This document shows, piece by piece, positions 47,282 to 53,400 of a stretch of 64,000 nt of DNA (the stretch's first letter is position 1; each line of letters starts with the position of its first letter). The position numbers and the translations under genes are program-made. This DNA comes from Rhizomucor pusillus (Eukaryota; Mucoromycota; Mucoromycetes; Mucorales; Lichtheimiaceae): positions 124,001 through 188,000 of the forward strand of contig FWWN02000668.1 in NCBI GenBank assembly GCA_900175165.2, given 5' to 3'. A model generated the notes under the pieces. The model was not told where the DNA came from and searched no databases. It saw nothing but the letters and a program-made list of their open reading frames with translations.

Positions 47282-47866
47282 TCAGATCATCAGCGAGCGC
47301 TGCAGATCTTTGCGACGAACTTCCCATTCACGTTCAATTTCGCCATCGATGTCTTGGAAAACATTGCCGAGCTGGGCACGGACTGTATGTGCAAGATCCA
47401 GCTGTTGTCGGGGTGGTATCGGTTTTTCTTCTGGTACGATAATATCAGGAGAAGAAAAAGAAGGAGGAGATCTGCTGTTGGTATTGACGGGAGGTGATGG
47501 CGGGGGTGATGGTAATTTGGCATCGACTGCTATTTCAGTTTTCTCTTCTTCCTCGAGAACTTGAGGTGGTCTTTCTGGAACGAGTCTTATCGGGGATGTA
47601 GATGAAAAAAAGGAGGAGAGGCGGCGGCGCATGCTGCTGCGTGGAGAAGAAGAGGCGCTGGTAGGTGAAGGAGAAGACGACGATGACAGTGAAGTCATGG
47701 AAACACCTGCAATGGATAATCGACCTGGCTTATTAGCTCTGTCCTTTTGGGCTGTAGGAGGAGGTGCTCGGCTGGGCATGCCAAACCATCGTCGAGCAGA
47801 GCCATCTGATGAAGTTAGCATTGATATCGAGGCCCGTTTCTCGGCGGATGTTTTGTAGAACGACAT
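47282..47866 (-). CDS. Ser/Pro-rich hypothetical protein
   Basis: A single-exon frame of about 194 residues starts at 47866 (MSFYKTSAEKRASISMLTSS). It is dominated by Ser, Pro and Arg (RRRLSSFFSSTSPIRLVP, LPSPPPSPPVNTNSRSPPSF) and ends in a more ordered helical segment (AHTVRAQLGNVFQDIDGEIE then REWEVRRKDLQRSLMI). I do not recognise it. The composition suggests an intrinsically disordered, possibly phosphorylated regulatory protein. A GA/GAGT-type run directly upstream (about 47878-47922) lies in the 5' UTR. An upstream in-frame extension to 48016 exists but is low complexity. Confidence 0.5.
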   Translation of the reverse strand: MSFYKTSAEKRASISMLTSSDGSARRWFGMPSRAPPPTAQKDRANKPGRLSIAGVSMTSLSSSSSPSPTSASSSPRSSMRRRLSSFFSSTSPIRLVPERPPQVLEEEEKTEIAVDAKLPSPPPSPPVNTNSRSPPSFSSPDIIVPEEKPIPPRQQLDLAHTVRAQLGNVFQDIDGEIEREWEVRRKDLQRSLMI

Positions 47867-48750
47867 TGTAAAGGAGCAGAGAGAGAGAGAGAGAGAGAGA
47901 GTGAGAGTGAGAGTGAGAGAGACAAGTAGCGATAAAGAGTGAGAAGAAGAAAGATGAAAAATATAGTCTCTCTTTGTTACAATGGAAAAGTAACCAAAAA
48001 GAAACATGACGTACACACATACGCATACCCACGCTGCGGGTGTGCGACAACGCCCACCTACAGTATTCCCTTTTTTGAACTATTTAAGCGGGAAGCTGGA
48101 AAGTGCTTTCCGGGCCGTCACTTGACCTTACGAAGCATTTGCAGAGCATGTGGATAGATGATACCCATTGTCTACAACAGAGCACTGCTCTGTTAAGTAA
48201 GCAGCCGCTTCAGTAGACAAAAGTCCCTATACTAGCATCTTGTAATTTCCGTTGATTTGTACTGTCTCCTTGCCCAGAAGCCAAGGCCACACAGTAACAC
48301 AAGCCGCTTCCTGTGTAGCACCCTGATGCATTGTTCTCTGCACCAAATGGATGTCTTCCTAGATTTCCGTGCTGAGCCCTCTTTGTCGACATCCCTTTGG
48401 TTTCTACATTTGACGCGCCGCATGGCTCGCAAGAAACGGCTATAATTAGTACCTACACTGCTCGATGGTGGTCTCGTTCGATATCTTGTATGTAAAAAAT
48501 GATATAATGGAACAAACAAAGCAAGAAATTCTGGGAAATATCCGATCTCGATCCAGATAATCGATGTGTCTTATGATATTCGACTCATGATCTCTTTCAA
48601 CTGATACTTATTACATTTGTGCAGCATCCATCGAATATCTGCAACTGGGCTAATATGGCATTCTATCCCGATACTTGTCGCTGTTACATCGGAGAAGAGC
48701 GGTCACCACATCAAACATGATAAGAACAATTCTCAATGGAAAACAAAAAT
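47867..48750. other. Intergenic downstream of THI5 transcript
   Basis: This contains a GA-rich run next to the Ser-rich gene, then unremarkable sequence. No gene was recognised. The right end meets the THI5 poly(A) signal. Confidence 0.4.
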
Positions 48751-48756
48751 TTTATT
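48751..48756 (-). terminator. Poly(A) signal AATAAA of THI5
   Basis: On the minus strand the sequence reads GAATAAAATTTT about 28 nt beyond the 3' edge of the TPP aptamer. It fits a polyadenylation signal and places the aptamer inside the THI5 transcript. Confidence 0.6.
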
Positions 48757-48783
48757 CAAAGCGATGAAAACAAAGCGGTTCAT

Positions 48784-48869
48784 TCCCTTCCCTTCGCAGG
48801 AATTACCCTGATCAGGTTATGAGAGTATTTCTCAGCCCAGCACCGAAAGTGTCGAGCACCCCTAGGGAT
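48784..48869 (-). promoter_or_regulatory. TPP riboswitch aptamer in the THI5 3' UTR
   Basis: Read on the minus strand, the conserved THI-box elements occur in order: AGGGGTGC, a variable hairpin (GACACTTTCGGTG), GGCTGAGAAATAC, then ACCTGATC, then GGGTAATTCCTGCGAAGGGAA. CTGAGA and the following bases bind the pyrimidine ring, and the ACCTGAT...GCG side binds the pyrophosphate in known TPP aptamers; the terminal AGGGA pairs with CCCT at the 5' end to close P1. The P3 loop is short. The aptamer is on the same strand as THI5, about 147 nt after its stop codon and about 28 nt before AATAAA. Known fungal cases lie in 5' introns; plant THIC has a 3' UTR location. Confidence 0.95.
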
Positions 48870-48886
48870 GACCACTTGCATTTCAC

Positions 48887-49003
48887 CTAAATGTGGATGA
48901 AATAAGGGAAATAAAATGGAATGGGATCGGCAAGATCCCGTCCAACCCGGTTTCTTTGGTTAGCAGACTGCAAACAATGCAACTTGATTGAAAATTACAT
49001 TAC
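48887..49003 (-). other. Candidate 3'-UTR intron of THI5
   Basis: Twelve nt after the TAA stop (49018-49016) the minus strand reads AAG|GTAATG, a good donor. An acceptor CATTTAG lies at 48887, 17 nt before the aptamer; a nearer CAG at 48968 is also possible. GTGAAA directly after the distal acceptor could itself act as a donor. Such sites around a TPP aptamer suggest ligand-dependent alternative splicing. This is predicted from sequence only. Confidence 0.45.
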
Positions 49004-49015
49004 CTTGACACTGGC

Positions 49016-50098
49016 TTAGGCGTGGACAGCGGTAGAGCGGCAGGAGCTGCAGTAACCAGGTACGACACCGGTGTCGACGGTGGTTGGCTCAATACCGGGA
49101 GTAGACTCGGGCAGCATCTCCCAGGTCAAAAACTCGTTGGTCATGTTCTGAACGAAGTCCTGCTTGATAATACCGAGACGTTTGCAGTAGTTGGTGACCT
49201 TGTCCCAGTCGCGCTGAACGTTCTTGAGATCGCGCGAGAAGTAGCGGAAGGAACGCTGGAAGATCTTGCGGTTGACGTCCGATGCCATGATAGGCTTCAT
49301 TTCACAGAATAATTCATATGCCTTGACAGGGTCCTGGAACATGACATCAGCGGCGCGCTTAACGGCCTTCATGAATGCCTTGCATTTTTCAGGATTCTCG
49401 GCCATAAACTGCTCGTTGGCAATCATGAGAATGGAACAGAAGCAGCAGCAGCCAAGCTCGGCCAACTCGTCAATGCGGAGCATGCATACATCGTCGCGGG
49501 AACGGCCTTGCTGGACAGACCATTCTTCAAGTTCTACCATCTGCACGTTCTCGAGACCGATACCGGCATCAATCTCGCCGCGGATGATAGCGCCAGTAAC
49601 ATTCATTCCCACGCGCACGGCAGTGTAATCCTCGGGTGTCATGCCATAATAACGAGTGAGTTCGTCGAGCTGGACCTTGCCAAACTCACCAACGTAGCCA
49701 ATGCGCTTGCCCCGCAAGCTCTGAAAGTCGTTGGTGATACCGCTGCACGACTTGAGGTAGACTACGCCGGTGAAGGGCTCGTCCAGCAGCGTACCCATGG
49801 ACTTGATGGGGAAACCACGCGCCTTGCCGGCAATGGTATGGATCATGGCCTTGCATCCCAAGTCGACCTTGCCCGAGCCAATGATCTCTGTCACATCGGA
49901 TGGGTTGTTGGGCTCAAGAATGGCCACCTTGATGCCTTCATCCTCGAAAAACTTGAGCTTCTCAGCCAAAAAGATGGGGAGATGGTAGGGAGTCGCGTGC
50001 CTGCGCGTTGCAAAAGGCAATTAGATCAGTTGCATATCAGGATGTCACGCTAGGCAGTGTTACCAGTTCAAGAGGCAAGTAATCTTATCAGTCGACAT
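49016..50098 (-). CDS. THI5: HMP-P synthase (THI5/NMT1 family)
   Basis: This single-turnover enzyme builds 4-amino-5-hydroxymethyl-2-methylpyrimidine phosphate from pyridoxal phosphate and its own histidine. Exon 1 (ATG 50098) encodes MSTDKITCLLNW; a roughly 65-nt intron joins HATPYHLPIFLAEKLKFFED. Conserved blocks: AILEPNNPSDVTEIIGSGKV, CKAMIHTIAGKARGFP (Lys62, the PLP lysine, and His66, the donated histidine), RGKRIGYVGEFGKVQLDELT, VRVGMNVTGAI, DAGIGLENVQMVELEEW and the iron-binding GCCCFCS motif. All key residues known from the yeast and Candida enzymes are present. Length is about 345 residues. A TATA box lies 69 nt upstream of the ATG, and the 3' UTR carries a TPP aptamer, so feedback by TPP is expected. 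It is followed upstream by PDS5 on the same strand. Confidence 0.96.
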
Positions 50099-50466
50099 GT
50101 TCTTTTGTTTTTTGTTAGAAAGAGATGGAAAAGGAGTGCTTTTTCACAGAAAGGTTCTCTATGCCCTTTATATAGGGTTTGGCGCGTACTAGATCATCTT
50201 TTTTTTTCTGCTGCTGGTGCGGGAAGATTCGGACACCAAAGGTCCCATGCACTGCAGATTTTTTTTCCGGCAGCGACCTCTTTTGGAAAAGCGTATTCTT
50301 GCAATGAAATGTAATCTGGGTTCTCACTTGGTTCACACTCTGGCTGCCATCCCACAACAGCAGATAGATCATGCATTCTTTCGTTCCCACTTTCCGAAAT
50401 TAGATCCACGTCTTAAAGACAAATGATCATCCGTTCTATGCTCTGCATAGTAAAACGAAGGGCATT
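50099..50466 (-). promoter_or_regulatory. THI5 promoter region
   Basis: This 368-bp stretch separates the PDS5 stop from the THI5 start, both minus strand. It contains the TATA box at 50167-50174 and T-rich runs (plus strand). No TPP aptamer is present here, so the usual fungal 5' location is empty in this gene. Confidence 0.6.
50167..50174 (-). promoter_or_regulatory. TATA box of THI5
   Basis: The minus strand reads CCCTATATAAAGGGC, with TATATAAA ending 69 nt upstream of the THI5 ATG. A consensus TATA box fits a strongly regulated gene. Confidence 0.7.
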
Positions 50467-53400
50467 TTACTTTTTTCCTGTCAACAATTTCATGAATGTA
50501 GGTGGAAGGAAGTTATTCATTAGATTCTATAAGCAAAGAATGACGCGTGAGTCGTTGTCGTCATGAGCAGTGTTACACACTAGTTGGCGACTTACGCGTT
50601 GCTGGATCTCACCAGCCGGTAGCGCCTTGTACAGCTTAGACTGCAAATTTATCCGTTGGGGATAGACGTTCAGCGGCCACGATGATTCCTCACATTTCTT
50701 CTTTATCAAATAGCTCGCCAAATCACATAGAATGTATGAATTCTAAAAAGCAAGTTAACACGGTGGTCTACAACCAACGTTCCATGGTTTCCGATACTTG
50801 CCTGGCTGTGTTCCGGGGAAACCATATCTCGGGACGATTTGATCTTTTGCGCCACGTGATACAAGAAGGAAACATTATCCGGGGTAGCTATGCAGGATAG
50901 ATAGAATTCAAAGTAGTGAACAAAGAGCATAAGGTCGTCGTTCGCTACAGTGAAGTCCGGATGATGTGCCAAAATGTGCATAAGCACAACGAACGATGTC
51001 TCCATGATAGTCGAATGTCCTTTTTCAGCCGCTGCACGCCTCTTGATATAGTTTTTGATTTGCTTGATCAAATCGGACTCTGGTTCATGTGCGTATAAAA
51101 ACAGAAGAGCAAAGTATCTCGGATGGATTTGGTTCAGCTTCAAACCTTTCATGAGGGTCTCAGCAAACATGGCGCGCACATAGTAACAACTGTCCTGTAC
51201 AGTAAGCGCCAGACGCTCGAATTTTGTCACTGTCAGTTCTTGTTCGTAGGGTTCCAGATGCGCTAACTTGATAATAGACTGCGCAGCGGCCAATCGCAAA
51301 TGGGATGTTTCCGCAGCGCTGGAGGCTCATTAATATTTGAGATACTTTCAAAATCAGAAGATGGTTTTACCTGGTATTGTTGGTAACTGCGACGTCGCAG
51401 GATAGATCAAGGCATTCCCACAAGAGCGCAAAAATACGGTCCGCAAGCATGTCAGGATGCTCTTCATCTTTTGTAGCAACAAGATAGTTCACCAAGACTT
51501 GCAAAGCTGCGAGCTTACAAGGGCAATGCGTGTCAAAACCAAATCTTCAAAAAGATTATCAATATTATTCTGCATACCTTTCCTTTTGAGGAATCAGGTA
51601 AAAGGTTATATTCAAGCCATTCTGTGTTTTGATTTTCGTCCTAAAAGTATCGATTAATCATTGTTGTAAATACGTTTTTCTTCAATACATACTGGTGGTG
51701 TTTTTTGCTCCATCAACGTGCCTTTGATATATTCCAACAAAGGCAAGATTTTGTGCGATAGCTCTGCAGCCTTGTACAATGCAAATTCAGCGAGGCACGA
51801 TAGTTTGACAACCAATTTTGGATCATCTACTTTCAAATCTCTACACGCAGTCTACGGGCTTCTGAGTAAGCATTTGCATTTTTAGAAGATACTTTTCATC
51901 CTTCTTTTCGGTATTCACCTCGATGATATCAGCACGCAAATCAGATGCGTCTGTGTTGCTGATTATGATGGCTGCGTGTCGTGCTTGTTCCACTGTTCCA
52001 GTTCGAATAAAGTTACATATTTGATTCAGCATCTCGCCATCGAATAGTTCAAATCGGGCGTTAGTCGTGCTTATGTTTGCAAGCAGCTCAAGTGATCCAT
52101 TTACTGGGAAATTGATTAGCAACTGAAGAAGTAAATTGAAAGCCATCTCGCACCTGTATTTGGATCCGTTTCGGCCAGCAGCAATGATACAACCTGATGT
52201 GCGTAGTTTTGATACATTACTGGGAAAATTGTCGAGATTTCCTGCAAACTCATGTAAATAAACTTTGCTTCCGGATACGTCTCTATACATCACATAGATA
52301 CCTTGAGCAATTCTTGGGCTGATTCAATTTTGCGGGTATCCCTGTGTAATCTTGCGTCTTGAAGAACTTGGAACAGATGGGGAATGTCGGACTTGTTTAG
52401 GATTACAAGGCAAGCTCGATTAAGAATGCCATGGAACGCATCGTGAATACCAGGCATCAAATCTTGAACGGTGCGTTCGAATTGTTTCTTGGGTGCATCA
52501 CTAAGTAAATGGATGTCCGGGCTTAAAAGATGTTGCGGACTTACTCTTGCATTTACAATGATGTCGTATTCAGCTTCAGGATCAATGCATGTCCTGAGTA
52601 ATTGGATAGTATCTATATTTTGAGCTTCTCGTAGTCGTCTGAGGGCATTGGCAGTCTTTGGCCCATCTGGAAATCGTGCTGTTACGACACATAGATGAGC
52701 TTTACGTATTATAGTGAGTAGTTGGTACCATTGCAACTCACATGAGACGTGTTTAATAATAGTTTCTGCTTGCTGTTGTGCATTTAAATCTGCTTCCATA
52801 TCCGTCATGTCGTCCTGATCGCAAGATCAGTTGGTATCGGATTTCTAAGGACCACTCGTTTGTTTCCAGCTTACCTCTGTGGAGCATGTTTGAATATATT
52901 TTGATAAAAGCTGTACGAAGCTGTGGGATAATTTTTTGAGCGCAAATTCATTTCCATCTGCTAGGACTTGTGGTTACCTCTTATGTCGCCTTAAGTAAGC
53001 GGAGAATGCAACTCGCGCTCGCTGCTGGAGAGATGCATGAATCTTTAGCAGTCGCTCAGTCCTGCTTGCATCATCCATGTTTTCCGGGAAAATAAACGCG
53101 TTCAATGTGCTTTCGAGAGCAGACCTGGAGGCACAGTTGTAATATTAGTACGTCATTCTTGTATTATTAGTCACGATAAACCTACATCACAGACAAATCA
53201 TCAAGGTACATGCAGTTGAGTAAAGTATCGGGTATCCACCCAACTTTACTGATAACAATATCATCACCTTCGTATCTTTTGGAACATTTAGCAATGTAAT
53301 AGCTTTCTATGAAGGGCAATCACTCACATTCTCGGGAAAGCTCTGTTGTAGATAGCTCCAAGGGTTGCCATAGCTTCTTTTCGAACAGGTTGCTATATAA

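Follow-up and report, generated by a model that had tools for sequence, protein, structure and literature searches.

A TPP riboswitch aptamer in the 3′ UTR of the Rhizomucor pusillus thiamine gene THI5, with related aptamers downstream of two sugar transporter genes

The THI5 locus of Rhizomucor pusillus raises the question of whether a fungal thiamine gene can be controlled by thiamine pyrophosphate (TPP) from its 3′ end. In plants, a TPP riboswitch in the 3′ UTR of THIC was reportedly described in 2007 by Wachter and by Bocobza. The fungal riboswitches of NMT1 and THI4 have been grouped as types I-IV, which lie in introns of the 5′ UTR, in coding introns or in the 5′ UTR (excerpted text of PMC5882874), and a TPP riboswitch is recorded in all basal fungi (PMC4133162, as excerpted). 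In the 64,000-nucleotide stretch of DNA analysed here (the window), a first-pass annotation made from the letters alone had placed a TPP aptamer behind the stop codon of THI5 and had proposed a plant-like arrangement in a fungus of the Mucoromycota, an affiliation that proved correct. Here we examine whether the aptamer is genuine, to which transcript it belongs and how it could act.

The gene is identified as THI5/NMT1 by its Pfam profile match, and THI5 gave one match in the 24.45 Mb assembly (353 contigs). Its two exons (Table 1) are separated by a coding intron of the ordinary kind, with the donor CTG/GTAACA and a C at +5. The top named relatives, among the best 120 of 1518 matches, are Mucoromycota (Apophysomyces, Syncephalastrum, Circinella and Mortierella) with 81-84% identity. 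When aligned with nine relatives picked among those 120, the protein has the same C-terminal endpoint, barring a tail of some 20 residues that varies, and it keeps the CCCFC motif; judging from this alignment, the intact TAA stop codon at 49018-49016 of the minus strand is therefore very probably real. A TATA-like box (TATATAAAG) is found at 50174, 76 nt upstream of the ATG, which makes a short 5′ UTR probable, one that would leave little room for an aptamer. Further upstream, exons of the cohesin factor PDS5 occupy window positions 50706-52808 on the same strand as THI5.

Past this stop codon, and on the THI5 coding strand as annotated, a covariance-model search finds a TPP aptamer at 48873-48772 whose score of 67.2 bits compares with an RF00059 gathering threshold of 54.3 bits. 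The CUGAGA and UAAU..GCG motifs for TPP binding occur in the right order and the associated thiamine gene is THI5/NMT1; from the family match and the motifs, the RNA is a candidate for TPP binding. The segment 48763-48886 folds more stably than its shuffled versions (z -2.98; 0 of 200 shuffles as stable), and an AATAAA, at +260, comes right after the aptamer, again as first described. Apart from RF00059, no Rfam family matches anywhere in the 64 kb window at gathering thresholds, so there is no aptamer 5′ of THI5 at that threshold, which bears out the claim that the 5′ region lacks one. We are highly confident that a genuine TPP aptamer sits in the THI5 3′ UTR.

Table 1. Positions of the features discussed. 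Coordinates are those of the window unless a contig or locus is named.
Feature	Position	Strand	Basis or remark
THI5 exon 1	50064..50098	-	ATG at 50098; N-terminus MSTDKITCLLNW same as in relatives
THI5 coding intron, 63 nt	50001..50063	-	Conserved protein on both sides
THI5/NMT1 exon 2	49016..50000	-	PF09084, 226.9 bits; alignment with nine relatives
Candidate 3′-UTR splice donor AAG/GTAATG	49002..49003	-	12 nt after the stop; weak by PWM; splicing putative
Candidate branch point TGCTAAC	48959..48965	-	Sequence
Candidate acceptor TTTAG/	48887..48888	-	Pyrimidine tract before it; long P1 helix directly after
TPP aptamer with long P1 helix (~22 bp)	48764..48886	-	Folding, shuffle tests
TPP riboswitch aptamer	48772..48873	-	RF00059, 67.2 bits, E 5e-11, full length
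AATAAA poly(A) signal	48751..48756	-	Sequence; 7 nt beyond the P1 helix
C177 transporter aptamer	C177:50742-50837	-	RF00059, 55.3 bits, above gathering threshold
C55 transporter aptamer	C55:29767-29953 (L014:3768-3954)	+	RF00059, 33.5 bits in genome search, 47.1 bits in local search
THI4	C14:122024-122823	-	

An RF00059 search of the whole genome gave three matches, a number that is a lower bound because 49 of 725 candidates were scored. A strict pattern built on the binding motifs found exactly the same three loci in the genome and none in a reversed control. With a looser pattern nine sites were obtained, three of them the known aptamers; the other six, judged by eye and unscored, were rejected for a missing P5 motif. 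Contigs C177 and C55 carry the second and third aptamers, each past the stop of one of two paralogous sugar transporters (PF00083). The C55 copy stays under the 54.3-bit cut-off even when the search admits a long P3, and we ascribe its low score to the length of this element. Its P3 is extended by about 95 nt, and an Rfam scan at the gathering threshold misses this copy. The long P1 helix begins 129 nt past the stop in THI5, 17 nt in C177 and 191 nt in C55. Each of the three aptamers follows a stop codon, although this is less certain at C55.

At C55, an AATAAA stands 94 nt past the transporter stop and ahead of the aptamer, and another is found 693 nt past the stop. On the same strand, 510 nt beyond the aptamer, begins a gene for cytochrome c (PF00034, 59 bits). 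A 45-amino-acid piece of this neighbour gave no Pfam match, and it is the longer protein that is recognized as cytochrome c; the stretch that holds the AATAAA, the aptamer and the cytochrome c gene runs from L003:1302 to 2103. Because an AATAAA intervenes, the donor described below is missing and the cytochrome c gene follows on the same strand, the C55 aptamer may lie outside the transporter mRNA. At C177, the AATAAA is about 500 nt beyond the aptamer, and of two long same-strand open frames on that side, neither with a Pfam match, one extends into the aptamer. The predicted minimum fold of the C177 copy is near the canonical aptamer fold.

Genome-wide aptamer searches placed no aptamer near further transporter paralogues, which are at most 45% identical over the matched stretches. 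In the 6.5 kb neighbourhood of THI4 there was no Rfam match, and no CTGAGA motif on the THI4 strand. Many ascomycetes, by contrast, have a TPP aptamer at THI4. Scans of viral and of bacterial/archaeal contigs for THI5 returned 2 and 22 pattern stretches, none of them a relative, and the aptamer pattern had 0 matches in these contigs; a plasmid search for relatives found none.

The transporter pair allowed a comparison between aptamer and coding sequence. The two proteins are identical at 132 of 178 positions (74%, last 178 residues) and their genes agree at 32 of 71 fourfold sites, whereas the aptamers outside P3 match in 86 columns, mismatch in 2 and have gaps in 4 (the 5′ block contributes 25 matches and 1 gap column, the 3′ block 61 matches, both mismatches and the other 3 gap columns). 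Since the identity of the aptamers is far above the agreement at fourfold sites they look selected, and since their P3 elements differ by about 95 nt a recent copying is disfavoured; taken together, the downstream aptamers of the transporters look old and selected, in a test that covers this pair only and has THI5 outside it. In the P1 of C55, the additional U of the 5′ strand is accompanied by two additional A opposite it, in the 3′ strand, of which one is paired and the other bulged in the predicted fold. All three aptamers have a P1 far longer than the five base pairs it has in the Rfam model, and shuffling the flanks gave an equally stable P1 in 9 of 2000 trials for THI5, 58 of 2000 for C177 and 7 of 2000 for C55.

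Between the stop codon and the THI5 aptamer we found the donor and the acceptor that the annotation had named, with the GT at 49003, 12 nt past the stop, and the AG at 48888-48887. The donor, GTAATG, has no G at +5 and was unlisted in a PWM scan that kept sites above the 10th percentile of a training set of 31 introns (24 picked with a +5 G and 7 curated); because 24 of these 31 were chosen with a +5 G, the scan is biased against a donor of this kind. The acceptor scored 5.8, against a training median of 6.3, and the distance from the branch-point A to the acceptor G, 73 nt, is long. A junction from 49003 to 48968 would mean an intron of 36 nt, below the 47-86 nt range of the 31 introns, a small set in which 24 members came from a search restricted to 45-95 nt.

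A similar donor recurs at one of the transporters, TCAAG/GTAATG in THI5 and TCAAG/GTAACG in C177 being each exactly 12 nt past the stop. The pattern TAA-N7-TCAAGGTAAYG, which used TAA only and left out TGA and TAG, has three sites in the 24.45 Mb, two of which are the stops of THI5 and of the C177 transporter. The third is within a TBC-domain gene, with the TAA out of frame, where removal of a 61-nt intron that starts at a TCAAG/GTAATG donor would bring the reading frame back and lifts the fragment's Pfam score (40.4 to 43.9 bits). This putative coding intron (L048:1516-1576) would end in an unusual AAAAAG. By itself, the 11-mer TCAAGGTAAYG occurs 42 times, against 27 in a reversed control (48.9 Mb, both strands), in a comparison that is post hoc, the motif having been taken from THI5 first. 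With only 42 occurrences per 48.9 Mb, a match at an equal offset is unlikely to be due to chance. The C55 copy is without this donor and has TCAAGACG before its P1, and a donor-plus-CTAAC pattern occurs in the genome at THI5 and at one other site. Directly after the C177 aptamer there are two more donor-like sequences, AAG/GTGAGG and GAG/GTGTGA (L002, reverse strand, ~1600-1625), so this aptamer may have an alternative donor on either side.

In our reading, regulation probably goes through the THI5 3′ UTR, and we lean towards a control by TPP that is exerted via splicing of this UTR or via formation of its end. TPP would bind the nascent or mature 3′ UTR and alter its processing, with a lower output as the result. 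The likeliest step would be the splicing of a 3′-UTR intron that begins 12 nt past the stop, which a shift of the poly(A) site may or may not accompany; that splicing from this donor is the regulatory step we propose tentatively, with doubt slightly outweighing belief. With the stop codon ahead of every altered part, the protein would stay unchanged and the amount or stability of the mRNA would vary. The annotation's proposal of an effect on transcript stability or poly(A) choice may be right.

The most specific alternative is the plant THIC switch in full, in which P4/P5 would mask the donor at 49003 at low TPP so that the AATAAA at 48756 is used, and in which high TPP would free the donor to join an acceptor past 48750, with loss of the poly(A) signal and an unstable long mRNA. 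The order of stop, donor, aptamer and AATAAA is much like that of plants, and by eye AGGUAAUG pairs with CAUAACCU of the aptamer at 7 of 8 positions. The computed duplexes of donor and aptamer, however, are not stronger than those of shuffled donors: they were equalled in 702 of 2000 shuffles that kept the AAGGUAA core and in 1008 of 2000 full shuffles for THI5, and in 1492 and 1514 of 2000, respectively, for C177. The donor sits in a local hairpin (8 of 200 shuffles fold equally well) that mostly holds it irrespective of the aptamer, and pairing between donor and aptamer accounted for 0 to 9% of the free ensembles of four segments. The predicted probability that the donor is unpaired was 0.27 in the free 346-nt ensemble and 0.22 with the aptamer forced (0.16 and 0.07, 0.10 and 0.10, and 0.26 and 0.17 in the three other segments), so that in these models the forced aptamer leaves the donor no more open, when the plant mechanism needs the opposite direction. 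Acceptors past the poly(A) signal are modest only, the next listed one, at +367, scoring 4.8, and the transporter aptamers have GCGG where the CCUG of P4 stands, which means that the pairing strand is missing there. Masking of the donor as in plants is thus a prediction unsupported by ensemble folding or by duplex energies, and we consider the full plant-type switch unlikely; of the plant-like arrangement first proposed, the position of the aptamer holds and the THIC mechanism finds no support here. The folded aptamer could also control cleavage and polyadenylation, or mRNA stability, directly and without splicing, as would suit a weak donor and a 22-bp P1 helix that stops 7 nt ahead of the AATAAA. 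Such a geometry is not common to the transporters, given the distant signal of C177 and the two signals of C55, one before the aptamer and one 693 nt after the stop: the three loci are unlike in this respect, and we hold direct control to be rather unlikely. These gradings overlap, the plant-type step and the direct control of polyadenylation being in part narrower versions of the main explanation.

Two further explanations would deny the aptamer a role in THI5 expression. It could be a relic, a conserved aptamer whose regulation has been lost, a situation described for THIC in the diatom Phaeodactylum, where conservation is strong too (excerpted text of PMC9544697). In the predicted ligand-free minimum fold of the THI5 copy, CUGAGA is part of a local hairpin; this fold exceeds the canonical one in stability by 6.3 kcal/mol, which would agree with such a loss. 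The conservation of the transporter aptamers above silent coding sites, which concerns that pair only, argues against it, and a relic appears distinctly improbable. Alternatively, the aptamer could be part of the 5′ UTR of a gene downstream on the minus strand, where there are open frames at 48232-48519 and 47282-48016, much as the cytochrome c gene follows the C55 aptamer on the same strand. Neither of these frames has a Pfam match, nor do the same-strand frames of C177, one of which overlaps the aptamer; the AATAAA comes immediately past the THI5 aptamer, and the aptamer is associated with a thiamine gene. We give this downstream gene almost no credence, and the case that the first-pass annotation had named as one that would overturn its reading, a separate transcript of the minus strand with the aptamer at its 5′ end, is unlikely.

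Aptamers for TPP in 3′ UTRs are already known from plants, algae and diatoms. The plant THIC case, with an aptamer in the 3′ UTR, masking of a donor by the aptamer and a poly(A) site in the intron (PMC10226581, as excerpted), resembles THI5 in having the aptamer 3′ of the stop, a donor-like site upstream of it and a poly(A) signal near; it differs in the gene (THIC, not THI5), and here P1 is long, donor masking is unsupported by energies and the far acceptor is unconvincing. With the fungal types I-IV, as the available part of PMC5882874 presents them, the R. pusillus locus shares the aptamer class and the gene (NMT1 is THI5), but its aptamer lies 3′ of the stop and would have no effect on the reading frame. 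Types I and III involve a 5′-UTR or coding intron with a uORF or an in-frame stop, and here the aptamer follows the stop codon. The same excerpt reports an NMT1 riboswitch in Mucor, and TPP aptamers in the 3′ UTR of eIF5B in Postia placenta that the structure method of its authors could not validate; the latter is also a fungal 3′-UTR case, although from a basidiomycete and in a gene that is not a thiamine gene. The TPPsw-SUGAR riboswitches of Mucoromycota, which belong to sugar transporters and are mostly located in 5′ UTRs according to the excerpt of PMC11683625, are like our transporter aptamers in the type of gene, in a P3 of variable length, which is long in one of our copies, and in a changed P4, whereas both copies here are past the transporter stop and not in a 5′ UTR. 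Algal genes with an NMT1 domain likewise carry a 3′-UTR TPP aptamer with no known mechanism; they are single-exon genes of algae, and their protein, unlike THI5, may not be an HMP-P synthase, an identity that the excerpted PMC9544697 calls doubtful for the diatom protein. According to the same text, the 3′-UTR TPP aptamers of diatoms are conserved and unresponsive to thiamine. In the open-licence papers searched we found no report of a 3′-UTR TPP aptamer for a fungal THI5.

A broader and more speculative proposal, which we regard as doubtful, is that Mucorales possess a portable 3′-UTR cassette, made of a donor 12 nt past the stop and an aptamer with a long P1, that has moved between two unrelated genes, THI5 and a transporter gene, and displaced 5′ control in this fungus. 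A logic like that of plants would then have arisen separately in fungi, with a switch other than pairing between aptamer and donor. The published 5′-UTR placement of the transporter riboswitches of Mucoromycota may merit re-examination. If our reading is true, R. pusillus would offer, after the unresponsive diatom tests, another organism for testing 3′-UTR riboswitches, and 3′ control of thiamine genes would reach beyond plants and algae into fungi.
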